Shown: piece after piece, positions 41,112 to 52,848 of the stretch
How the letters are laid out: each line of letters starts with the position of its first letter
Position numbering within the stretch: the stretch's first letter is position 1
Assembly: GCF_900112765.1 (NCBI RefSeq)
Contig: NZ_FOMZ01000004.1
Span: forward strand, 111,446-175,445
Source of the DNA: Actinopolyspora alba
GTDB lineage: Bacteria; Actinomycetota; Actinomycetes; Mycobacteriales; Pseudonocardiaceae
Length of the DNA: 64,000 nucleotides
Direction: 5' to 3'
Notes under the pieces: generated by a model
Seen by the model: the letters and a program-made list of their open reading frames with translations, nothing else
The model's database searches: none
Told to the model about the DNA's origin: nothing
Made by a program: the position numbers and the translations under genes

Positions 41112-41672
41112 TCAGACGGCGCCGCCTGCTGCCTCGGGTGCGGAAGGGTCCTCCCCGTCGTCGCCCACCTGCTCCCGGGCGAGGAAGTTCTCCACCTCGA
41201 AGAGGTTGCCGTTCGCGCGGTCGACCACGGTCAGCAGGGTGGACATCTGCGAGACCTCCTCGACCTGCTCCTTGAGGAACCACTGCATGAACTGCTCGCC
41301 GATGTAGTCGTCCTCGGCGCGCGCGGTCCTGGCCAGCATCTCGATCTCGCGGGTGACCTCGCGTTCCTGCTCCAGCGCCAGGGCCACGAGTTCCCGCGCC
41401 TCGTTGAACTCGTTGCGCACCTCGTCGACCGCCGGAATGTGCGCGGAAATGTCGTTGTCCATCAGGAACCGCACGATCATCATGCCGTGATTGCGCTCTT
41501 CCAGCGCCTGCTTGTAGAAGTGCGCGGCGAGGCGGGGAAGATCGGATTTGTCGAACCACACGGCGAGCGCGATGTACTGCTGTGAGGCATTGAACTCGCT
41601 GCGCACCTGCTTTTGCAGCAGCTCGTGGAACTTGGATTCGTGTTCTTCCGGTTTGGCTGCCTTCAAAGTCAT
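41112..41672 (-). CDS. Ferritin (BfrB-like)
   Basis: A 186-residue non-haem ferritin. Ferroxidase ligands are visible in the helical pattern RSEFNASQQYIALA, KQALEERNHGM (Glu/His) and FLKEQVEEVSQM. It should store iron as the 24-mer ferric mineral. The C-terminus has an acidic tail. It is monocistronic, with a 190-bp upstream region full of GAGG repeats that could be iron-regulator sites. Confidence 0.92.
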   Translation of the reverse strand: MTLKAAKPEEHESKFHELLQKQVRSEFNASQQYIALAVWFDKSDLPRLAAHFYKQALEERNHGMMIVRFLMDNDISAHIPAVDEVRNEFNEARELVALALEQEREVTREIEMLARTARAEDDYIGEQFMQWFLKEQVEEVSQMSTLLTVVDRANGNLFEVENFLAREQVGDDGEDPSAPEAAGGAV

Positions 41673-41866: not shown

Positions 41867-43351
41867 TCACGAGAGCCACCCCCTGCCGAGCAGCTCGGCG
41901 TGGAACGCCTCGTAGCTCTCGGCGAGCCGTGCCACCTCACCGGGCACCGGTTCCACCGACTCCGCCTCCGGTGTCATGGCCGCGGCGGCGGTCCCCAGAT
42001 CGGGGTGGACCGTGCCACAGGCCGCGAGCAGTGCCGCTCCCAGCGGCGTACCGGCCCGGGGAACCCGCAGCACCGGTTCACCGAGCACCGATGCGCGGAT
42101 CCGGCACCAGGTGAGGCTGCGGGCACCTCCCCCGGCGGTGCGGACCGGTCCGGTCACGGGTGCGCCGAGCGAGCCGAGCCGTCGCAGCGCCAGTTTCTCG
42201 CAGAACGCCACGCCCTCGAGTCGTGCGCGGTGCAGCTCCACGCGGTCGGCGGGCTCGCCCGACAGGAAACCGCGTGCCCGCTCGTCGGAGAACGGGAAAC
42301 GTTCCCCCTGCCTGCGCAGCGGGTAGCACAGCACCCCGGCGGGGCCACGTGCCGCGGCCGCGCGGTCCAGCTCGGCCAGCTCGTCGGTCACGTCGGCCAG
42401 GGCCTCACCGCCGGTGTTCGACGCCCCTCCCGGCAGCCAGCCGCCCTCGGGGTGCCGGTGGCTGTAGACCACACCGGTCGGGTCGTGCACCAGTTCCGCC
42501 GAGACGGCCTTGAGCACCAGGGTGGTCCCGATGACCGTGACCACCCGCCCGGTGTCCACCGCCCCCGCGGCGAGCTGCCCGGCACAGCCGTCCGTCATCC
42601 CGGAGCGCACCTCGCAGCCGACCGGCAGCCCGGTCTCGGACGCGGCCTCGCGGGAGATCGTCCCCAGCGGTCGTGCGGGCGCCACCACCTCGGGCAGCCG
42701 CGCCGCGTCCACACCCACCGAGTCCAGCGCCTCGTGCACCCACTGTCGGCGCAGCGGATCGTAGCCGCTCTTGAGCGCGTGGCTGCTGTCGGTGGGCACC
42801 GGATGCCCCACCAGCCGTTCGGCCATCAGGTCCGGGGTGTGCAGCAGCCTGGCCCCGGGGGCCTCGGTGCGTTCCGCAAGCAGCGCCAGGTGCGCCAGGC
42901 CCGAGGTGGCCGAGGGAGTGATCCCGATGTCGTCCCACCGCCCCGCTCCGGCACGCCGGGCCAGCGCGGCGTGCTCGGCGCCGCGGCGGTCGTCGTACAT
43001 GATCGCCGGTGCCACCGGCTCCGCCGCGCTGTTCACGGCCGTGACGGTGCCCGAGGTGGCGCAGACGGCCAGCGCCGTGATCGCGCGGCTCCGGTCGCCG
43101 AGTTCGGCGGTGCAGCGGGCCAGCGCGTCGCGCACGGCGGGCCACCAGCTCCGCGCGTCCTGTTCGGAGGAACCGTCGGCACCGTGCACCGGCCGTGGCA
43201 GGGCGGTGGCCGCTGTCGCCGCGAGCTCGCCACCGGCGTCGCGTACCTCGACGCGCACCTCGGCCGTGGCGATGTCCACGCCCGCCACCAGCGGTTCGGT
43301 GCCTCCGGTGTGTCGTACTGCCGTTTCGGTGCTCAAGGTGGGGTCCTTCAC
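41867..43351 (-). CDS. FGGY-family carbohydrate kinase
   Basis: A 494-residue sugar kinase. VAGVDIATAEVRVEV is the N-terminal phosphate loop; GMTDGCAGQLAAGAV contains the catalytic Asp; TAGGGARSLTWCRI is the C-terminal ATP-binding segment. Its start overlaps the stop of the upstream HAD gene (GTGA), so they are co-translated. Substrate is unknown: gluconate, xylulose or a polyol are typical. It is the distal gene of the leftward arm of the locus, whose first gene is a polyol permease. Confidence 0.85.
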   Translation of the reverse strand: MKDPTLSTETAVRHTGGTEPLVAGVDIATAEVRVEVRDAGGELAATAATALPRPVHGADGSSEQDARSWWPAVRDALARCTAELGDRSRAITALAVCATSGTVTAVNSAAEPVAPAIMYDDRRGAEHAALARRAGAGRWDDIGITPSATSGLAHLALLAERTEAPGARLLHTPDLMAERLVGHPVPTDSSHALKSGYDPLRRQWVHEALDSVGVDAARLPEVVAPARPLGTISREAASETGLPVGCEVRSGMTDGCAGQLAAGAVDTGRVVTVIGTTLVLKAVSAELVHDPTGVVYSHRHPEGGWLPGGASNTGGEALADVTDELAELDRAAAARGPAGVLCYPLRRQGERFPFSDERARGFLSGEPADRVELHRARLEGVAFCEKLALRRLGSLGAPVTGPVRTAGGGARSLTWCRIRASVLGEPVLRVPRAGTPLGAALLAACGTVHPDLGTAAAAMTPEAESVEPVPGEVARLAESYEAFHAELLGRGWLS

Positions 43352-44037
43352 AGCCGTTCCAGTGCCGCCGGTAGCTCGTCGAGTGAGCGGATCACGGCGT
43401 CCGGTTCGGCCAGCTGTTCCGAGGTCGGGTGGGGAGGGGCCTCACCGCGCGTGATCCACACGCTGCGCAGTCCGACCCGTTTCGCGCCGCGCACGTCGGT
43501 GTCCAGCCGGTTGCCGACGTGCACGGTTTCGGCGGCGGAGACACCGGCGCGGTCCATGGCGTACCGGAAGATCGCCGGGTCGGGCTTCTCCGCGCCCACT
43601 GTCTCCGAGATCGCCCAGACGTCGATGTGCTCGGCGATGCCGTCGCGGCGCAGTGCCTCCACCACCAGCTCTCGCTGGTTGGCCACCACGGCCAGTCGGT
43701 ACGTCCTGGCGAGCGCGCGCACGGTGGGCAGCACTTCCGGGTAGAGGGCGCTCGGGGGGTATTCCCAGTAGCTCTCGGCCAGATCGGACAGTCGTTTCCG
43801 GTCGTCCGGGGTGAGGAAGTGCTCCGCGATCGCGGTGCGCAGCGATCCCGCCTGGCGCTGTCGTTGTTCGTCGTAGACCCGCTGGAACGTCTCGCGGTCG
43901 ATCTCGGCTCCGGCGAGTTCGCGGGTGGCCCGCAGCAGCGCGTCGCGGTAGACCGCGTCGTCGTAGATCGGCCCGCCGACGTCGAGCAGTACCAGTTCGG
44001 TGGGGGCGGGCCGTTGGTTGTTCGCTTCGCTGGTCAT
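43348..44037 (-). CDS. HAD-family hydrolase
   Basis: A 229-residue HAD protein. Motif I is DVGGPIYDD, where the nucleophile Asp is kept but the second Asp is replaced by Gly, as in some HAD-IA phosphatases. Motif II is VVANQ, motif III includes GAEKPDPAIF and motif IV is HVGNRLDTD. The cap domain is helical. It could dephosphorylate a sugar phosphate or a by-product of the adjacent kinase. ATG 44037 is the preferred start. Confidence 0.8.
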   Translation of the reverse strand: MTSEANNQRPAPTELVLLDVGGPIYDDAVYRDALLRATRELAGAEIDRETFQRVYDEQRQRQAGSLRTAIAEHFLTPDDRKRLSDLAESYWEYPPSALYPEVLPTVRALARTYRLAVVANQRELVVEALRRDGIAEHIDVWAISETVGAEKPDPAIFRYAMDRAGVSAAETVHVGNRLDTDVRGAKRVGLRSVWITRGEAPPHPTSEQLAEPDAVIRSLDELPAALERL

Positions 44038-44134
44038 CGGCTCTCGTCGCGTGTTCGGGACCGTGTTGGTCGGGACGGTGTGTCGGTCACCAGGATCGCG
44101 CATCGGCCCTCGATCCCGGTGTGCCGAGCCGAGC

Positions 44135-44219
44135 GGCGCGTGTGGCGGGGTGCCACACGCGCCGTCTCCAGGGGGCGGGGCGTTCGGAGGTGCTTGCCCG
44201 TGACCGTTCCGAACGCCCC
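44135..44219 (-). terminator. Tandem strong hairpins after the permease gene
   Basis: Two perfect 12-bp stems: GGCGCGTGTGGC with GCCACACGCGCC (44135-44163), and GGGGCGTTCGGA with TCCGAACGCCCC (44177-44219). They lie between the permease stop and the HAD gene. No T-run is present, so they may terminate, attenuate or stabilise transcripts. The first has only a 5-nt loop. Confidence 0.55.
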
Positions 44220-44295
44220 TGACGCCACGCGGCGTCGACTGCTCACCCGGTTCGGTGCGAGCACCTCCCCGAGCGGTGGAGCGGGGCCTGCCCGG

Positions 44296-45666
44296 TCAGC
44301 CGGTCGTGGCCCCCGCCGGTGCGGTCGCGGTGGCCGCCCGCGCCTTCTTGGCCTCGCCCGGGTCGCTGCCGTCCTTGACGAAGGTGGACAGCACCGCGAC
44401 GATCACGTACATCAGCGCGAACGCGATGGCCACGCCGCCGCCGCCGAAGATCGGGTGGATGGCGTAGACCGTCACCGGCCCGAGGAAGGCCGCACCGCCG
44501 GCGCCGAAGTTGAGCACCGCCAGCGCCGAGCCCTTGTCCTTGGTGGTGACCATGGACGGCATCAGGGCCGAGAGCGGGACGAATCCTGCCAGCAGCACGC
44601 CGTAGACGGCGCCCAGCGTGGCGGCGACGCCGAAGCTCTCGCTGGAGATCGAGGCGAAGTACCACAGCGGGGTGGCGATCGCGCAGCCCACGCAGCCGAA
44701 CCAGGTCACGGTGCGACGCCAGCCGAAGTAGTCACCCAGCACACCGAACGCCAGGTTGGCCGCGATGTTGGCGCCGTAGACGATGCTGGTCATGGCCGCG
44801 ATCTCGGGGGCGGTGAGGAAGCCGCCACCGGGTGTCTCCGGTCCGAAGACGAAGGGGAACATCGCGAAGAAGCCGAACTCCGGCGCGGTGTTGACGATAC
44901 GGGTGATACCGCCCGCCAGGGTCCGCTTGTCGCGCCAGATGATGTCGACGCCCTCGATCAGTCGTTTCGGGCTGCGGGGGTTCCGCACGGTCTCGTCGGC
45001 GATGGGCTTGGTGCCGTGCGGTTCGCGGACCGAGCAGCCGATCACACCGCCGACGGCGACCAGCACCAGCGAGAGCACCAGCGTGTTGTGCAGGCTCATG
45101 CCCATCGGGCCGATCGCGAAGGCGGCCACCGCCGCACCCAGGGTGGGCAGACCACCGGTGAACACGAACCAGAACCAGCCCGCGACCGAGCCGCGCATGT
45201 GCACCGGGCTGGCCACCTGCGCCCACACCAGGAAGGCGTAGGCGAACAGCGGGTAGGCGAAGCCGCGGATGCCGTAGATGGTCACGATCAGCAGGTAGCT
45301 CTGCGAGGGGATCGCCACGTACAGGAAGAGGAGTTCGAAGACGACCCACCAGCCCGCGCCGAGCCACATCACGTAGCGGGGTCCCCAGATCGAGGACAGC
45401 GTGCCGGAGAACCAGGAGGCGATCATCACGGCTAGGCCGTAGATGGTCACCGTGGCGAAGGTGGCCTGCGAGCCCGCCAGCCCGCCGCCGTCGGGCTGCG
45501 TCAGGTACTGGGTCAGGTAGGTGATCTCCACGCCGTCGCCGATCATGAAGATCAGCACACCGACGAAGCCCCAGAGCAGCGGCTTGGGGATACCGATTCT
45601 GTCGAGCCAACTACGGCTCTCCGACGCGGCGGTCGAACCGTCCGCCGCTGCTGGTTGCTGTACCAA
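44296..45666 (-). CDS. Polyol permease, MFS (RbtT/DalT/CsbX family)
   Basis: A 456-residue 12-helix MFS transporter. IGIPKPLLWGFVGVLIFMIGDGVEITYLTQYL is a hallmark region of the ribitol/arabitol (RbtT/DalT/CsbX) polyol permease group. The start is a TTG at 45666 with GGAGG 8 nt upstream; the open frame continues further up but has basic Pro/Arg-rich content. It is the first gene of the leftward arm. Expected role: proton-driven uptake of a sugar alcohol, which the kinases, isomerase and dehydrogenase of the locus would process. Confidence 0.85.
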   Translation of the reverse strand: MVQQPAAADGSTAASESRSWLDRIGIPKPLLWGFVGVLIFMIGDGVEITYLTQYLTQPDGGGLAGSQATFATVTIYGLAVMIASWFSGTLSSIWGPRYVMWLGAGWWVVFELLFLYVAIPSQSYLLIVTIYGIRGFAYPLFAYAFLVWAQVASPVHMRGSVAGWFWFVFTGGLPTLGAAVAAFAIGPMGMSLHNTLVLSLVLVAVGGVIGCSVREPHGTKPIADETVRNPRSPKRLIEGVDIIWRDKRTLAGGITRIVNTAPEFGFFAMFPFVFGPETPGGGFLTAPEIAAMTSIVYGANIAANLAFGVLGDYFGWRRTVTWFGCVGCAIATPLWYFASISSESFGVAATLGAVYGVLLAGFVPLSALMPSMVTTKDKGSALAVLNFGAGGAAFLGPVTVYAIHPIFGGGGVAIAFALMYVIVAVLSTFVKDGSDPGEAKKARAATATAPAGATTG

Positions 45667-45798
45667 TGTTTTCGCCTCCGAAGCGACTGGTGTTGCCGGA
45701 CCCCGCGGCCTCGGTCGAGGGGCCCTGTTGACGCGGCGGATGGGCGATCGAGCTGTGATGCGCGGCACCGCCGGTGTTAACCGAGTATCATGCACCTC

Positions 45799-45808
45799 GT
45801 TACTTTCA
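45799..45808. promoter_or_regulatory. Possible second operator half-site
   Basis: GTTACTTTCA matches the complement of the TTAAAGTAAC operator arm at 9 of 10 positions. It lies 133 nt upstream of the permease start, so the same regulator might act on both arms. Confidence 0.35.
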
Positions 45809-45940
45809 CGCGCAAGATGTTATTTCTCGGTTTCCGGCCGTGGACGCGACGTGTCCGATCGTGAATCGGTCCAGGGGTGATCGCTCGGCTTCACTGCGTT
45901 GTTCGGGGGAAGTGTTCCCCGGGGCCTGTTAACTCGGGGC

Positions 45941-45969
45941 TGGACAATTAAAGTAACTAGAGTTAATTT
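45941..45969 (+). promoter_or_regulatory. Predicted promoter of the rightward polyol operon
   Basis: TGGACA (45941-45946) and TAATTT (45964-45969) are spaced by 17 nt, resembling a sigma-70-type promoter. The operator covers the spacer and -10 box, which fits repression. Confidence 0.5.
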
Positions 45970-45971
45970 AA
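45948..45971. promoter_or_regulatory. Palindromic operator of the polyol locus
   Basis: Inverted arms TTAAAGTAAC and GTTAATTTAA around a 4-nt spacer TAGA, matching at 9 of 10 positions. AT-rich in a GC-rich genome, 26 nt upstream of the first gene. No regulator gene is adjacent. Confidence 0.65.
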
Positions 45972-45996
45972 CGTCAAGTTTGTGAAAGGACGGCGC

Positions 45997-46719
45997 ATGA
46001 CGGTCAGTGAGGTAACCGAGTCCCGGCCGACGGGACCGCTGCGGGCGGTCGTGTTCGACATGGACGGCGTACTGGTGGAGAGCGAACACCTCTGGGAACG
46101 GATGTGGAGCCGCTACGCCGCCCGGCACGGGCACGAGTGGAGCGCCGAGGACACCTCGACGGTCCAGGGCATGAGCTCGCCCGAATGGTCGGCCTATCTG
46201 GGCAGGGTCTGCGGGACCCCGGAACCCGCCTCGGAGACCGAACGCGCGGTCGTCGACGACATGATCGCCGCACTGGACGACGGCGAGATCGAACTGCTCG
46301 ACGGCGCCCGTGAGATGGTCACCGAGGTCAGCTCGGTGGTTCCGATCGCGCTCGCATCCTCGGCGGCCAGACCGCTGATCGACGCCGTGCTGCAGCGGCA
46401 CGGCCTGGCCGAGCACTTCACGGCCACCGTCTCCAGCGCCGAGGTGCCCAGGGGAAAGCCCAGTCCCGACGTCTACACCGAGGCCGCCCGGCGGCTCGGG
46501 TTCACCGGCGCGGAGTGCGCGGGCGTCGAGGACTCCAGCAACGGGATCCGCGCCGCCCACGCGGCCGGGATGAGCGTGGTCGCCATCCCCAACGCCGGCT
46601 ATCCCCCCAAACCGGATGCCATCGCCTCGGCGAGCGTCGTCGCCGACTCGCTGGACCACGTGCGGAAAACCCTGCTGTCCATGCTGTCCGACCCCGTGAC
46701 CGAGAGCGAGGGTGCCTGA
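45997..46719 (+). CDS. HAD-family phosphatase (beta-phosphoglucomutase-like)
   Basis: A 240-residue HAD-IA protein. Motif I VFDMDGVLVESEHLWERMW has both Asp residues; ALASSAA is motif II; RGKPSPDVYTEAARRLG is motif III; GVEDSSNGIRAAHAAGM is motif IV. It could hydrolyse or move phosphate on sugar phosphates. ATG 45997 follows AAAGGA. It is the first gene of the rightward arm and its stop overlaps the kinase start (TGATG). Confidence 0.85.
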   Translation: MTVSEVTESRPTGPLRAVVFDMDGVLVESEHLWERMWSRYAARHGHEWSAEDTSTVQGMSSPEWSAYLGRVCGTPEPASETERAVVDDMIAALDDGEIELLDGAREMVTEVSSVVPIALASSAARPLIDAVLQRHGLAEHFTATVSSAEVPRGKPSPDVYTEAARRLGFTGAECAGVEDSSNGIRAAHAAGMSVVAIPNAGYPPKPDAIASASVVADSLDHVRKTLLSMLSDPVTESEGA

Positions 46720-48458
46720 TGACCGGACTGACGGACTCCGCGACGTTCAAGGACTCCTGGCTGGACGGTTTCGTCGCCGCCTACGGCCGCACCGTGGCGC
46801 GCGTGCCCGGTGCTTACGGCGTGGTGGGCAGGCACGCTCCCCGCCAGGGCAAGGTTTCGGTGATCATCGGTGGTGGTTGCGGGCACTACCCGGCCTTCGC
46901 CGGACTCGTCGGTCCCGGCCTCGCCGACGCCGCCGTCATCGGCGACGTGTTCACCAGCCCCAGCGCCGAGCAGGTCTACCGGACCGCGCTGGCCGCCGAC
47001 GGCGGAGCGGGCGTGCTGTTCAGCTACGGCAACTACTCCGGCGACGTGATGCACTTCGGGCTCGCCGCGCGGCGACTGGCAGCCGAGGGCATCGACAGCC
47101 GCACCGTGCTGGTCACCGACGACATCGCCAGCGGCTCCGCCGACACCCCCGAGGTCCGGCGCGGCGTGGCCGGTGACTTCTTCGTGTTCAAGGTCGCCGG
47201 TGCCGCGGCCGAACGCGGCGAGAGCCTGGACAGCGTGGCCGCGTTGGCGCGCAAGGCCAACGACCGCACCCGCACCTACGGCGCCGCCTTCGGCGGCTGC
47301 ACCCTGCCCGGCAAGTCGGAACCGCTGTTCACCGTCGACCCCGGCCGGATGGAACTGGGACTGGGGATCCACGGCGAGTCCGGCGCGCGCAGCGCCGAGG
47401 CGATGAGCGCCGAGGAACTGGCCGCCGAACTGGTCGACAACCTGCTGACCGAGCTGCCCGCCGGTACCGATCGGGTGGCCGTGCTGCTCAACGGCCTGGG
47501 ACGCACCAAGTACGAGGAGATGTTCGCCTGCTACCCGGCCATCGAGCGCAGGTTGCGGGCCGCCGGACTGCGCCCGCACCGCCCCGAGGTGGGGGAGTTC
47601 GTCACCTCGCTGGATATGGCCGGGCTCTCGCTGTCGCTGCTCGCGCTGGACGACGAGCTCGCCGAGCTCTACGACGCGGATTGCGACACCCCCGGTTACC
47701 GGCCGCTGCGGCCGCTGACCGAACACGAGCCCGGTCCCGAGGAACGCGGCGCGGCCCCCGCCGAGGACGTCACCAGCCGGGGCGGACTCGTGCACGAACT
47801 GCTCGACCGAGCGCTGGGCGACGTGGCCGACGCCGAGGACGAACTGGGTCGGCTCGACGCGGTGGCCGGTGACGGTGACCACGGCCAGGGCATCGTGCGC
47901 GGCCTGCGGGCCGCCGTTCGGGCAGCCGACCGGGCTGGCAGCGACGCGGCCGATCCCCGTTCGATCGGTGACGCGCTGCTGGCGGCCGGGACCGCGCTGG
48001 CCGACGCGGCGGGCGGCGCTTCCGGGGCGCTCTACGGAACCCTGCTCAGCCAGACCGGCGCCGGACTGCGCGAGCACCCGACCGTGGACACCGCCGTGCT
48101 CTCCGAAGCGGTGCGGGAGGCGTCCCGGGCGGTCGCCGAACTCGGTGGCTCCGCCAGGGGCGACAAGACGCTGCTCGACGCGCTGGAACCGTTCGCCGAC
48201 GAACTCGCCGAGTGCTCCCGGGCAGGCACCGAGCTGCCCAACGCGCTGACCGCCGCCGCCGAGGTCGCCACCAAGGCGGCGCGGGACACCGCGCGGCTGA
48301 CCTCGGCACGTGGCCGTGCCTCGCGGTTGGGCGGGCACGACGAGGGCACCGCCGACCCCGGTGCCACCTCACTGGCCCTGCTGCTCAGCGCCGTGGCCGC
48401 CGGAGTGTCCGACGGCGCGTGCGAACGAAACCGTCGAAAGGGGAACCCGCGATCATGA
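46719..48458 (+). CDS. Fused DhaK-DhaL kinase (dihydroxyacetone or tetrulose kinase)
   Basis: A 579-residue kinase. The DhaK part (about 1-330) has GGGCGHYPAFAGLVGPG and the substrate-binding His218 in GLGIHGESGAR, which forms a hemiaminal with keto sugars. The DhaL part (about 355-575) has the ADP-metal motif AGDGDHGQGIVRG with Asp385 and Asp387. ATP-dependent DhaKL fusions phosphorylate dihydroxyacetone, or D-/L-erythrulose (DerK/LerK in Mycobacterium smegmatis). With an RpiB-type isomerase next door (ATGA overlap), a tetrulose substrate is plausible but inferred. Confidence 0.88.
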   Translation: MTGLTDSATFKDSWLDGFVAAYGRTVARVPGAYGVVGRHAPRQGKVSVIIGGGCGHYPAFAGLVGPGLADAAVIGDVFTSPSAEQVYRTALAADGGAGVLFSYGNYSGDVMHFGLAARRLAAEGIDSRTVLVTDDIASGSADTPEVRRGVAGDFFVFKVAGAAAERGESLDSVAALARKANDRTRTYGAAFGGCTLPGKSEPLFTVDPGRMELGLGIHGESGARSAEAMSAEELAAELVDNLLTELPAGTDRVAVLLNGLGRTKYEEMFACYPAIERRLRAAGLRPHRPEVGEFVTSLDMAGLSLSLLALDDELAELYDADCDTPGYRPLRPLTEHEPGPEERGAAPAEDVTSRGGLVHELLDRALGDVADAEDELGRLDAVAGDGDHGQGIVRGLRAAVRAADRAGSDAADPRSIGDALLAAGTALADAAGGASGALYGTLLSQTGAGLREHPTVDTAVLSEAVREASRAVAELGGSARGDKTLLDALEPFADELAECSRAGTELPNALTAAAEVATKAARDTARLTSARGRASRLGGHDEGTADPGATSLALLLSAVAAGVSDGACERNRRKGNPRS

Positions 48459-48919
48459 GCCCGATCACCGTGGCCGTGGCGGCCGACAACGCCGGTGTGG
48501 CACTCAAGAAACTGATCGCCGAACAGCTGGAGGGTGACACCAGGGTCACCGAGGTGCTGGACTACGGCGTGCACGACGACTCCGACGACCGCGCCTACCC
48601 CCGGCTGGGGCTGGCGGCGGCGGAAGCCGTGGCACGCGGCGACGCCGATCGTGCGGTGCTGATCTGCGGCACCGGCATCGGTATGTGCATCTCGGCGAAC
48701 AAGGTCGACGGGGTGCGCGCTACCGTCGCGCACGACTCCTATTCGGCGGAGCGCTCCATCAAGTCGAACGACTGCCAGGTGCTGACCATGGGGTCCAGGG
48801 TCATCGGACCCGAACTGGCCAAACGACTGGTCGACGAGTGGTTGGGCTATTCCTTCGACCCGTCCTCGGCGAGCGCGGCCAAGGTCGCATACATAACCGA
48901 CTACGAACACCAGAGCTGA
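48455..48919 (+). CDS. RpiB/LacAB-family sugar-phosphate isomerase (DerI-like)
   Basis: A 154-residue isomerase. ICGTGIGMCISANK contains the catalytic base Cys71; HDSYSAERS follows. The N-terminal motif is DNAG instead of the common DHAG, so one usual active-site His is Asn. RpiB relatives interconvert ribose/ribulose 5-phosphates; in M. smegmatis DerI-type relatives act on erythrulose 4-phosphate. Co-translation with the DhaKL gene supports a tetrulose-phosphate role. It would feed erythrose 4-phosphate to the pentose pathway, as an inference. Confidence 0.85.
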   Translation: MSPITVAVAADNAGVALKKLIAEQLEGDTRVTEVLDYGVHDDSDDRAYPRLGLAAAEAVARGDADRAVLICGTGIGMCISANKVDGVRATVAHDSYSAERSIKSNDCQVLTMGSRVIGPELAKRLVDEWLGYSFDPSSASAAKVAYITDYEHQS

Positions 48920-49049
48920 TAGCCGCGGCTCGCGGCGGTCGCCGCGGCCGGAGCGGTCGGGGGCGCCGAGCCCGCGGAGGCCGGTCGCCCCGGAAACCGC
49001 CGCGGTGAGCCATCGGACAGCGGTGAGACCGCTGAAGGAGGAATGAACA

Positions 49050-50087
49050 GTGCGCGTGCTGGCAGCGGGCGACAACTTCGTCGGCCCCGACCTGCTCGAG
49101 AACGCCGTGCGTTCCCGGGTGAACGACGTCGAGGTCGGCAAGCTCAAACTGCCCTGGCCGGTCGAGCCGTTCGGCCCCGTCGGCGGGGTCGAGGAGGCCA
49201 GCGGAACCGAACAGCAGGTGATCGAGGCCGTCGAGGGCGCCGAGGTGTGCGTCACCCAGATGGCGCCGTTCACCGAGCGCGTGTTCGCAGCGGCACCCTC
49301 GTTGAAACTGGTCGCGGTCTCGCGCGGTGGTCCGGTCAACGTGGACCTCGCGGCGGCGACCAGGGCGGGGGTGTCGGTCACCTACGCACCCGGCCGCAAC
49401 GCCGCCGCTGCCGCCGAGTACGCGGTGGGCATGATCCTGGCCGCGATGCGCCGCATCCCCGACGCCGACGCCGAGCTCAAGCGGGGCAACTGGCGGGGCG
49501 ACTTCTACGCCTACCCAGAGGCGGGCATCGAGCTGGAGGGCAGCACGGTCGGCCTGGTCGGCTACGGCGCGATCGGCAGCAGGGTGGCCAAGGTGCTGCG
49601 TACCTTCGGCGCGGAAGTGCTGGTCGCCGATCCCTACGCCGATCAGGACGGACTGCGCGCCGACGGTGTGGAACCCGTCGCGCTGGAGGAGATGCTGCCC
49701 CGCTGCTCGGTGGTCAGCCTGCACGCCAGGCTCACCCCGGAGACCAAGCACCTGCTCGACGCCGACCGCCTGGCGCTGCTGCCCGAGGGCGCGGTGCTGG
49801 TCAACACCGCCCGCGGTGGCCTGCTCGACTACCAGCCGCTGCCCGGGCTGCTGCGCAGCGGCGAGCTGGGTGCGCTGGCGCTGGACGTCTACGACGAGGA
49901 GCCCCCGCCGCCGGAGTGGCCGCTGCACGGCGCTCCCAACCTCATCACCACCCCGCACCTCGCGGGCGCGACCAGGCAGACCGCGCACCGTGCCGCCGAG
50001 ATCGTGGCAGCCGAGGTCGACCGGTTCGCGCGGGGCGAGCGGGCCGCGCACCTGGCCAATCCCGATGTTCTGGGGAGCGAGACATGA
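49050..50087 (+). CDS. D-isomer-specific 2-hydroxyacid dehydrogenase
   Basis: A 345-residue dehydrogenase. NAD motif LVGYGAIGSRVAKVL; catalytic Arg in NTARGGLLD; Glu in DVYDEEPPPPEW; His in TTPHLAG. It should act on a 2-hydroxyacid/2-ketoacid pair (glycerate-like). Start GTG 49050 has AAGGAGGAA upstream. It is 130 nt after the isomerase and overlaps the following kinase by ATGA. It could handle a sugar acid in a parallel branch. Confidence 0.85.
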   Translation: MRVLAAGDNFVGPDLLENAVRSRVNDVEVGKLKLPWPVEPFGPVGGVEEASGTEQQVIEAVEGAEVCVTQMAPFTERVFAAAPSLKLVAVSRGGPVNVDLAAATRAGVSVTYAPGRNAAAAAEYAVGMILAAMRRIPDADAELKRGNWRGDFYAYPEAGIELEGSTVGLVGYGAIGSRVAKVLRTFGAEVLVADPYADQDGLRADGVEPVALEEMLPRCSVVSLHARLTPETKHLLDADRLALLPEGAVLVNTARGGLLDYQPLPGLLRSGELGALALDVYDEEPPPPEWPLHGAPNLITTPHLAGATRQTAHRAAEIVAAEVDRFARGERAAHLANPDVLGSET

Positions 50088-51541
50088 TCACCGCGGTCGA
50101 CATCGGAACTTCGCTGACCAAGGCGGCGGCCTTCGACGACGCGGGCCGCGTGCTCGCCGAGGCGAGCAGGCAGTCGCACCTGGAGCACTACCCCGACGGC
50201 AGGGTGGAGCAGGACCTCGACGACGTGGTCTCCACCGTGGCGGCGGTGGTGCGCGACGTGGGTGAGCAGACCGGGCAGCAGCCGCGCGCGGTGGCGCTGA
50301 CCGGGCAGGGCGACGGGTTGTGGTTGCGGGACTCCGTCGGAAGGCCGGTCCGGCAGCCCATCTCGTGGATGGACGGTCGCGCCGCTTCCGTGGTCAAGCG
50401 GTGGCAGCGCGACGGGGTCAGCAGGCAGGTCTACGAGCGCACCGGCAACGGGCTGTTCCCCGGTGCGCAGGGACCCCTGCTGGCCCACCTGCGCGACAAC
50501 GAGCCGGAGTCGCTGCGTAACGCCGCGGTGGCCGGGTACTGCGTCGACTCGGTGCTGCACGTGCTGACCGGCGAGATCAGCGTGGACGCCTCGGACGCCT
50601 CCGTGCCGTTCCTGGACGCCGACACCAGGGAGTACGACGAGCGGGCGCTGGAGGTGTGCGGGCTGACCGAGTTTCGGCACCTGCTGCCCAAGCCCGCTCG
50701 GCCGAGGCAGCTCTTCGAGCTCGACGCCAACGGCGCGGAACTGCTGGGGCTGCCCCGGGGGTTGCCGGTCACGGCGGGTCCGTTCGACCTGCCCGCCTGC
50801 GCCGTGGGCGGCGGGCTGCACGAGTTCGGCGACGGGCTGCTGATCGTGGGGACCACGCTGGCCTGTCAGGTGCTCACCGAGTCGGGCGATCGTCGTTGGC
50901 AGGAAGAGCCCTCCGGGATGTGGTTGTGCACGCCCGAGGAGAACCAGCTGCTGCACGGCATGCCCGCGATGGTGGGAACCGCCAGCCTCGACTGGGTGCT
51001 GGACCTGCTCGGCATGGAGATCGGTGATCTCGGCGGGGCGCTGGAGGCCAGCCCGCCGGGGGCCAACGACGTCTCCGCGCTGCCGTTCCTGGCGCCGGGC
51101 GGGGAGCGCTCGCCGTTCGTGGATCCGCGCGCCAGCGGGCAGATCAGCGGGGTGCGGTTGGGCACCAGCCGCAGCGACGTGGTGCGGGCGGTCTGCGAGA
51201 GCGTGGCCTACGCGGCGCGGCACTGCTTCGAGGCGGCCGGGTTGAACGGCAAGCTGGTGGCCTGCGGCGGCGGCACGCGCTCGCATCCCTGGGCGCAGGT
51301 GTTCGCGGACGTGCTGGGGCAGCCGCTGCACCTCACGGACGATCCCGGCATGGGTGCGAGGGGAGCGGCGGTGACGGCCGCCCGCGCGCTCGGCGACGAG
51401 GTCGACTCCGGCGAGTGGACCCTGCCGCTGCGCGAGGTCCGGCCCAATCCGGACGTGCGGGACCGCTACGAGGACGGCTACCGCCGCTACCGCGAGACCC
51501 TGGACAGCATGCGCGAGCTCTGGCGCGACTGGATGGGGTGA
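50084..51541 (+). CDS. FGGY-family carbohydrate kinase (polyol or gluconate type)
   Basis: A 485-residue FGGY kinase. The N-terminal AVDIGTSLTKAAAF is the phosphate-binding loop, VALTGQGDGLWL is the sugar-contact region, AGPFDLPACAVGGG carries the catalytic Asp, and LVACGGGTRSHPWAQ is the ATP site. EryA of the tetritol pathways is of this family, so erythritol is one possibility. It is the last gene of the rightward arm. Confidence 0.87.
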   Translation: MITAVDIGTSLTKAAAFDDAGRVLAEASRQSHLEHYPDGRVEQDLDDVVSTVAAVVRDVGEQTGQQPRAVALTGQGDGLWLRDSVGRPVRQPISWMDGRAASVVKRWQRDGVSRQVYERTGNGLFPGAQGPLLAHLRDNEPESLRNAAVAGYCVDSVLHVLTGEISVDASDASVPFLDADTREYDERALEVCGLTEFRHLLPKPARPRQLFELDANGAELLGLPRGLPVTAGPFDLPACAVGGGLHEFGDGLLIVGTTLACQVLTESGDRRWQEEPSGMWLCTPEENQLLHGMPAMVGTASLDWVLDLLGMEIGDLGGALEASPPGANDVSALPFLAPGGERSPFVDPRASGQISGVRLGTSRSDVVRAVCESVAYAARHCFEAAGLNGKLVACGGGTRSHPWAQVFADVLGQPLHLTDDPGMGARGAAVTAARALGDEVDSGEWTLPLREVRPNPDVRDRYEDGYRRYRETLDSMRELWRDWMG

Positions 51542-51833: not shown

Positions 51834-52280
51834 TCAGGCGTTCGTCGTACTCGGAGTGGCTCCCGATTCGCGCGGTTTGCGCAGCAGCCGGTCGATCGAG
51901 TAGTTGCCGCCGCTGAAACCGAGGGCGAGCGCGGCGGCGGCCAGCACGAGCACGTACTCGTAGCCACCACCGGAGGTGAAGAAGCCCTGGCTGAGGTGGA
52001 CGAAGAACAACGCCCCGAGCATGACCGCCGCCAACAGCACGCCTGCGAGCGGCAGTGCTACTCCCAGGATCAGTGCGATGCCGCCCAGCGTCTCCACCAG
52101 TGCGGCGAACCAGGCTGATACTCCGGGGGCGGGGATGTCCATGCCCGCGAACGATTCGGTGGTGCCGCTGATCCCCCACTGGGTGAACTTCTGCATGCCG
52201 TGGGCGATGAACACGATTCCGAGCACGACTCGTCCGAGAAGCAGGGCGAGATCGCGGACTGCGGTTGGTAACTGCGGCAC
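51834..52280 (-). CDS. DoxX-family membrane protein
   Basis: A 148-residue protein with four transmembrane helices. LALLLGRVVLGIVFIAHGMQK, the mid segment LVETLGGIALILGVALPLAG and the C-terminal YSIDRLLRK are typical DoxX. Some members form part of thiol-based oxidative stress complexes. GTG start follows AGGAGGA. It diverges from a MarR regulator across 112 bp containing paired operator-like sites, so it is probably a MarR target. Confidence 0.85.
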   Translation of the reverse strand: MPQLPTAVRDLALLLGRVVLGIVFIAHGMQKFTQWGISGTTESFAGMDIPAPGVSAWFAALVETLGGIALILGVALPLAGVLLAAVMLGALFFVHLSQGFFTSGGGYEYVLVLAAAALALGFSGGNYSIDRLLRKPRESGATPSTTNA

Positions 52281-52392: not shown

Positions 52393-52848
52393 ATGACGCA
52401 ACCAAGGTGGCTGGACTCCGAGGAAAAGGCCGCGTGGAACGCCTTTCTGGAGGCGAGTCACCGGGTGGAGCGGCGTGTGGAACATCACCTGCGTGAGCAG
52501 GAGGGACTGTCGCATCCGCAGTACGAGATCCTGGTGCGGCTGGCCGACGAGCCGGAGCGGCAGCTGCGGATGACCGAGCTGGCCGAGTCGCTGTTGACCT
52601 CCAAGAGCGGGGCTTCGTACCAGATCGGCAAGCTCGAGAAGGCCGGGCTGGTGCGGCGCAGCTCGTGCCCCGGCGACGATCGCGGGGTGTTCGCGGTGCT
52701 GACCGAGGAGGGCATGGCGAAGCTGAACCGGGTGGCGCCGGGCCACGTCGAACTGGTCCGCTCCTCGCTGATCGACCTGCTCAGCCGCGAACAACTGGCC
52801 GCGCTCACCGACGCGCTCGACACCGTGGGGCGGGGGTTGGAGGACTGA
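52393..52848 (+). CDS. MarR-family transcriptional regulator
   Basis: A 151-residue winged-helix protein with LSHPQYEILVRLADEPERQLRMTELAESLLTSKSGASYQIGKLEKAGLVRR covering the HTH, and the wing in SCPGDDRGVFAVLTEEG (Asp-Arg-Gly typical of MarR). There is no cysteine in the N-terminal sensor area. It is divergent from doxX, with its own operator in between, so it is probably an autorepressor that also represses doxX. The ligand is unknown. Confidence 0.88.
   Translation: MTQPRWLDSEEKAAWNAFLEASHRVERRVEHHLREQEGLSHPQYEILVRLADEPERQLRMTELAESLLTSKSGASYQIGKLEKAGLVRRSSCPGDDRGVFAVLTEEGMAKLNRVAPGHVELVRSSLIDLLSREQLAALTDALDTVGRGLED

Follow-up and report, generated by a model that had tools for sequence, protein, structure and literature searches.

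A probable polyol-catabolic gene cluster in Actinopolyspora alba whose putative DeoR-family regulator is encoded elsewhere in the genome

In a 64,000-nucleotide stretch of the draft genome of Actinopolyspora alba (5.24 Mb in 42 contigs; we call this whole stretch the window), a divergent cluster of eight genes encodes a polyol permease of the major facilitator superfamily (MFS), two FGGY kinases (FGGY1 and FGGY2), a DhaKL fusion kinase, an isomerase of the RpiB/DerI type, a 2-hydroxyacid dehydrogenase (2HADH), and two HAD phosphatases (HAD1 and HAD2). We propose, with moderate confidence, that this cluster is a DeoR-repressed regulon for polyol catabolism, whose most likely substrate would be a tetritol similar to erythritol or threitol, with a pentitol as a possible second substrate. 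Open reading frame calling and family scans recovered the gene content and coordinates that were given in a preliminary description of this DNA. The eight genes are genuine and unbroken, and they evolve under purifying selection: dN/dS against two congeners is 0.08-0.31 for every gene, and catalytic motifs are kept wherever we checked them. Gene clusters of this type are widespread in actinobacteria, and we found no description of the locus in the literature that we searched.

The preliminary description likened DhaKL and the isomerase to the erythrulose enzymes DerK and DerI, as opposed to glycerone kinases and ribose-5-phosphate isomerases. We compared both proteins, in phylogenetic trees, to reference enzymes from Escherichia coli, from plasmid-borne rhizobial loci, and from other sources. 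The isomerase tree had positive and negative references, and in it the isomerase is separated from true RpiB proteins, including the RpiB of this genome, with 99/97 support. Its partners are EryI from the erythritol locus of Rhizobium leguminosarum, the isomerase from an apionate-type locus of Rhizobium etli, and PDB entry 5ifz; the relatives in those two rhizobial loci are 44-49% identical to it. When the isomerase is aligned to reference RpiB, the DH-G, R-HN, and GGRH motifs are replaced, and its score is below the cut-off of TIGR01120 (105.8 vs. 138.65; E. coli RpiB scores 255.7). DhaKL matches PRK14479 with 648 bits (cut-off 492), and it splits from glycerone kinase and from DhaK of the phosphotransferase type with 94/95 support. 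The same genome carries a separate housekeeping RpiB and a separate DhaK-DhaL-DhaM. Neither protein clusters with the glycerone kinases or the ribose-5-phosphate isomerases, and homology backs a probable DerK/DerI-like role on tetruloses. Also, relatives that have DhaK(L) and this type of isomerase adjoin genes for transaldolase and transketolase or for triose-phosphate isomerase (TIM), which is expected if the product is erythrose 4-phosphate.

We also considered the possibility that the cluster is a housekeeping or repair unit, with a duplicate glycerone kinase, a ribose-5-phosphate isomerase, and phosphatases for the removal of stray sugar phosphates. Every gene does belong to a large generic family, and HAD phosphatases are abundant and promiscuous. 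But the trees place the isomerase and DhaKL outside of true RpiB and glycerone kinases, the genome has the separate enzymes just mentioned, and the cluster has a permease of its own, a regulator gene that co-occurs with it, and specific sites upstream of its genes. We consider a housekeeping role to be extremely unlikely. As a separate observation, a divergent RpiB-type isomerase on a plasmid of Streptomyces clavuligerus (L109:6989-7468) lies outside of any sugar operon, next to an aminotransferase, a B12-binding radical SAM gene, and a nucleoside phosphorylase.

In a tree of FGGY reference proteins, FGGY2 groups with EryA, the kinase of the R. leguminosarum erythritol locus, with 97/97 support. 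That locus (L120, on plasmid pRL12) has the gene order kinase, GlpD-like, SorC regulator, TIM, and RpiB-type; we take it to be an erythritol locus from this gene order and from what is known of pRL12. The placements of the isomerase, FGGY2, and DhaKL support a predicted role in tetritol catabolism. The permease belongs to the RbtT/DalT/CsbX family (TIGR00897; 461 bits, cut-off 375). As for FGGY1, its best matches in PDB are SePSK (5htj) and AtXK-1 (5htr). FGGY1 and SePSK (35% identity) share a clade with 100/100 support, although the position of SePSK within this clade is weak (80/49), and FGGY1 keeps the catalytic aspartate (D221 of SePSK) as GMTD. Curated cut-offs were reached only for the permease, for the broad subfamily of dihydroxyacetone kinases, for broad subfamilies of RpiB, and, marginally, for RPI_actino.

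The cluster had been described as lacking a regulator gene, and indeed there is no dedicated regulator inside the locus. However, a DeoR-family gene lies within the left arm in Amycolatopsis, Saccharomonospora, Prauserella, and others, and when we searched the genome of the window with the linked DeoR protein, we found one clear ortholog. It is 68% identical and lies by itself on contig 34, adjoining a ferredoxin gene. This orphan protein has the DeoRC and HTH_DeoR domains (Pfam), and its DNA-recognition region is nearly identical to that of the linked protein. The ortholog is present in nine of 10 Actinopolyspora genomes. FGGY2 is found in these same nine, and the tenth has neither gene. In all nine, the DeoR ortholog is unlinked to the locus. 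This separation is not an assembly break, because the two are megabases apart in finished genomes (at 0.81 and 3.72 Mb in G152). Across 150 genomes of the family, 61 have both the DeoR ortholog and 2HADH, 79 have neither, and 7 and 3 have only one of them (P = 5e-30, Fisher's exact test, which ignores kinship); the two genes are within 10 kb of each other in 52 of the 61 genomes. Sister genomes G035 and G069 have the full layout, FGGY1-HAD1-SDR-permease-DeoR / HAD2-DhaKL-RpiB-2HADH-FGGY2, where SDR is a short-chain dehydrogenase/reductase. We take this layout to be ancestral. The regulator gene has moved elsewhere in Actinopolyspora, and because the genome retains a DeoR ortholog and the likely sites are kept, the cluster is unusual in its layout, not unregulated. 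An apparently regulator-less locus can keep its putative operators after the regulator gene moves.

The divergent intergenic region contains the candidate sites for this regulator (Table 1). The palindrome GTTAATTTAAC overlaps the predicted -10 box of the HAD2 arm. It occurs just once in the window, as compared to 0 times in 100 shuffles, and the genome as a whole has it at two places. It lies 24-44 bp before HAD2 in Actinopolyspora, in the Amycolatopsis-type loci, and in G035, and several of the Amycolatopsis-type loci have a second copy in the other arm; in Halosaccharopolyspora (L038), we found a degenerate form only. The spacing of the predicted HAD2-arm promoter is the same in relatives, such as GTGACA-N17-TAATTT in L037. 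A second and longer element, TAACRNC-N6-GTGAAAG, has exactly two matches in the 5.24 Mb genome, one facing each arm. The conservation of GTGAAAG in the HAD2-side copy may be owed in part to the ribosome-binding site; the permease-side copy is 137 bp from its gene. We infer that the DeoR protein binds these intergenic sites. The other genomic copy of GTTAATTTAAC, on contig 21 (L094:2078-2088), lies some 30 bp upstream of a gene for a GH3 glycosidase, which is followed by a ROK-family gene, and this copy is probably, though not provably, under other control.

The locus contains no polyol dehydrogenase, as had been noticed from the window alone, but orthologous loci contain an SDR. Three congeners, G035, and G069 have this gene between the permease and HAD1, and in Halosaccharopolyspora it is beside the permease. 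G035 and G069, two of these six sister loci, also have the linked DeoR. The SDR is nearest to general SDR models and to models of the GolD/DthD family, with scores below the cut-offs. It is absent from the locus in six Actinopolyspora genomes, including the window's, and its absence is a lineage-specific loss. On contig 19 (L081:2792-10562), the same genome has a separate and conventional polyol locus, with an ABC importer, two zinc-type alcohol dehydrogenases, DeoR, and a xylulokinase-like kinase.

We propose the following pathway. The MFS permease would import the polyol. In the ancestral layout, the SDR would oxidize it to erythrulose, which DhaKL would phosphorylate, and the DerI-type isomerase would then yield D-erythrose 4-phosphate for the pentose phosphate pathway. 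In a parallel, kinase-first branch, the EryA-like FGGY2 would act on the polyol itself; the oxidized phosphorylated product would be dephosphorylated by HAD2 and HAD1, and would be rephosphorylated by the paired ketose kinases DhaKL and FGGY1. The DeoR-family repressor, encoded elsewhere in the genome, would bind the sites in the divergent promoter region, including the one that overlaps the HAD2-arm -10 box. Given the loss of the SDR in the window's subclade, the first oxidation might be catalyzed there by an unlinked enzyme, or these bacteria might rely on the kinase-first branch or on ketoses. We infer the enzyme activities, the substrate, and the phosphatase-kinase route from sequence comparisons, and a new substrate is possible.

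We gathered 34 loci from named genomes as well as loci from further genomes of the same family, and we counted modules across 55 loci, which are not independent and include one genome counted twice. DhaKL is always accompanied by the isomerase. HAD2 is found in 35 of the 36 loci with DhaKL, and the lone exception is cut by a contig end. In 41 of the 42 loci with FGGY1, there is one phosphatase of two unrelated kinds, HAD1 or a histidine phosphatase, and no locus has both; HAD1 stands in the place of the histidine phosphatase that is associated with FGGY1 in relatives. These patterns suggest that the phosphatases and kinases form pairs, and perhaps a route of dephosphorylation and rephosphorylation. 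In a fuller form of this idea, FGGY2 would work with a dehydrogenase, which might be 2HADH with a non-classical substrate, to produce a ketose phosphate with the phosphate at the wrong end; a dedicated phosphatase would remove it, and the paired ketose kinase would restore it at the opposite end. This would happen once for C4 compounds (HAD2-DhaKL-RpiB) and once for C5 compounds (HAD1 or histidine phosphatase with FGGY1). We offer this phosphate swap tentatively and think that it is unlikely.

In some genera, the locus consists of DeoR, two FGGY kinases, the histidine phosphatase, and 2HADH alone. Thus 2HADH, the kinases, and a phosphatase are a core that is conserved across families, and DhaKL-RpiB is an optional module. 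This reverses an earlier impression that a sugar-acid dehydrogenase and two HAD proteins were unusual additions. The compact sister system, which lacks DhaKL and RpiB and sometimes has an MFS permease, was seen in loci L127-L131, L133-L135, and L138. Other relatives have extra genes: some have a GlpD-like dehydrogenase, mostly with an ABC importer, and others have a class II aldolase that resembles ribulose-1-phosphate aldolase. We asked if 2HADH might be a strict substitute for GlpD, as many loci have one or the other, but we dropped this idea because 7 of the 55 loci have both. Loci L060, L062, L137, L139, and L143 combine an EryA-like kinase, a GlpD-like dehydrogenase, and class II aldolases with an ABC importer, and the binding protein of this importer is similar to a sorbitol-type solute-binding protein. 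On a plasmid of Shinella sp. WSC3-e (L104, 2622-10473), a homolog of FGGY2 (49%) occurs with a GlpD-like gene, a class II fructose-bisphosphate aldolase, E1 alpha/beta and E2 subunits of a 2-oxoacid dehydrogenase complex, and lipoyl synthase, in a putative polyol-type pathway.

We also considered a cluster that handles a sugar acid. In a tetronate or related pathway, 2HADH and FGGY2 would use an acid of four or five carbons, for example erythronate, and the remaining genes would handle the derived tetruloses. The genes for 2HADH and FGGY2 overlap and are invariably adjacent in the window's relatives, and members of the dehydrogenase family use 2-hydroxyacids. 2HADH scores with phosphoglycerate dehydrogenase (PGDH) and, more weakly, with PdxB, and in the alignment with PGDH it keeps the catalytic Arg, Glu, and His. 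But the VRS motif of PGDH is VTQ in 2HADH, and ARAGVGLDN is VSRGGPVN. Also, the transporters are of the polyol type, FGGY2 is EryA-like, and the usual tetronate genes (DUF1537 kinase, PdxA2, and OtnI) are not among the family-scan matches for the locus. We consider a sugar-acid pathway to be highly improbable.

The main rival to a tetritol is a C5 substrate. If this were a locus for pentitols (ribitol or D-arabitol), then FGGY2 and a dehydrogenase would form ribulose 1-phosphate, HAD1 or the histidine phosphatase would dephosphorylate it, and FGGY1 would rephosphorylate the product at C5; in the Amycolatopsis-type loci, the class II aldolase would cleave ribulose 1-phosphate, and DhaKL-RpiB would be a side module. 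Several observations fit: the core of two kinases, a phosphatase, and 2HADH does occur without DhaKL-RpiB; the permease belongs to a ribitol/arabitol family; the related ABC importers have a binding protein whose nearest match is of the sorbitol type; and ribulose-1-phosphate aldolase is the best or second-best family for the aldolases of the relatives (198-220 bits, below the cut-off of 300). FGGY1 is SePSK-like, and SePSK is reported to prefer D-ribulose (PMC4880283). However, the window has DhaKL and the isomerase, which both group with tetrulose enzymes, and among the curated models, no cut-off for a C5-specific enzyme was reached. We view a pentitol locus of this kind as unlikely, and we prefer the tetritol proposal.

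Some of our results do weigh against a tetritol. FGGY1 points to C5, not C4, substrates; the grouping of FGGY2 with EryA rests on 30% identity; and the co-occurrence counts come from related genomes that are not independent. The isomerase is marginally above the cut-off of TIGR02133 (RPI_actino, ribose-5-phosphate isomerase; 169.6 vs. 168.2) and is under the cut-off of NF051858 (D-erythrulose-4-phosphate isomerase; 162.9 vs. 240), which EryI of R. leguminosarum (257) and the R. etli isomerase (258) both pass. NF051858 is a rhizobial model, so the low score argues against membership in that family rather than against the analogy. A search of the window's own genome for the SDR found no close ortholog, only paralogs of at most 42% identity. 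Finally, no known tetritol pathway assigns a place to 2HADH, and our proposal gives it no role.

Table 1. The polyol cluster and its surroundings (positions within the window)
Feature	Position	Strand	Description
FGGY1	41867..43351	-	Ribulokinase-like FGGY kinase, SePSK/AtXK-1 type; Pfam FGGY_N/C
HAD1	43348..44037	-	HAD phosphatase, DVGG-type motif I; PF00702; ATG start 44037; 4-base overlap with FGGY1
Polyol MFS permease	44296..45666	-	RbtT/DalT/CsbX family, TIGR00897
Divergent intergenic region	45667..45996		Holds the promoters of both arms
Element TAACATC-N6-GTGAAAG	45803..45822	-	Putative regulator site; faces the permease/HAD1/FGGY1 arm
Sigma-70-like promoter TGGACA-N17-TAATTT	45941..45969	+	Predicted by eye; HAD2 arm
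Perfect palindrome GTTAATTTAAC	45962..45972	+	Putative operator; overlaps the -10 box and lies 24 bp upstream of HAD2
Element TAACGTC-N6-GTGAAAG	45969..45988	+	Second copy of the putative site; faces HAD2
HAD2	45997..46719	+	HxpB-like sugar-phosphate phosphatase, FDMDGV motif; ATG start 45997; overlaps DhaKL
DhaKL fusion kinase	46719..48458	+	Dak1+Dak2; GIHGE and GDGDHG motifs; probable erythrulose kinase
RpiB/DerI-type isomerase	48455..48919	+	Probable erythrulose-4-phosphate isomerase
2HADH	49050..50087	+	D-isomer 2-hydroxyacid dehydrogenase family
FGGY2	50084..51541	+	EryA-like polyol kinase; 4-base overlap with 2HADH
DoxX	51834..52226	-	Flanking, outside the system
MarR-family gene	52393..52848	+	Flanking, not the locus regulator

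Neighboring genes overlap by 1-4 bases at HAD1/FGGY1, HAD2/DhaKL, DhaKL/RpiB, and 2HADH/FGGY2. We set the start of the permease at a TTG codon (45666) with GGAGG upstream; by sequence comparison, Halosaccharopolyspora has ATG at the same place. We considered the flanking MarR and DoxX genes as regulators and rejected them, as they are not beside the orthologous loci outside of Actinopolyspora. On the other side, a ferritin gene (41112-41672) adjoins FGGY1 in almost all of the Actinopolyspora that we examined, with no apparent link to the pathway.

Our proposal gives a testable assignment to sets of actinobacterial genes that are annotated only as generic kinases, HAD hydrolases, and a hydroxyacid dehydrogenase, and it supplies a candidate regulator and candidate operators for this family of loci. 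The conserved pairing of phosphatases with kinases, and 2HADH, are unexplained by known tetritol or pentitol pathways.

The individual steps resemble those of known tetritol pathways, while the combination, the phosphatase pairing, and 2HADH are in no pathway that we found in the literature searched. Among the known systems that we compared, the non-carboxylating pentose bisphosphate pathway of haloarchaea (PMC9700705) includes a ribulose-1-phosphate aldolase, which the class II aldolase of the window's relatives resembles, and a ribulose-bisphosphate 5-phosphatase, which HAD1 weakly resembles; all of these scores are below cut-off, and the organisms and the gene order differ. As compared to the SePSK/AtXK-1 kinases, to which it is related as described above, FGGY1 differs in that it would belong to a polyol regulon and has a phosphatase as its partner. 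The D-apionate-type locus of R. etli (plasmid p42f, L106) has an isomerase that is 48-49% identical to the window's, with DhaK nearby, but the window lacks its OiaX, four-carbon acid kinase, and TIM.

The erythritol locus of Rhizobium and Brucella (eryA, eryB, eryC, TIM, and RpiB-type; L120 in R. leguminosarum) resembles the window's locus in that FGGY2 groups with EryA and the isomerase groups with EryI. Some relatives of the window's locus pair FGGY2 with a GlpD-like dehydrogenase, much as EryA is paired with EryB. In the window itself, family scans found no GlpD-like EryB, EryC, or TIM-type isomerase (the GlpD-like gene is in some relatives only); instead, there are DhaKL, 2HADH, the HAD proteins, and an MFS permease, and the candidate regulator is of the DeoR type rather than the SorC type. 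Finally, the pathways for D-threitol, L-threitol, and erythritol in M. smegmatis use DthD, DerK, DerI, LerK, and LerI (Huang et al. 2015, as cited in PMC12780249). As outlined there, and likened here by its types of enzyme, this system is similar to the ancestral form of our locus: it is actinobacterial, and it combines a dehydrogenase, a DAK-type kinase, and an RpiB-type isomerase to reach D-erythrose 4-phosphate. To that scheme, the locus that we describe adds an MFS permease, two FGGY kinases, 2HADH, and phosphatases, and the window's subclade has lost the SDR.

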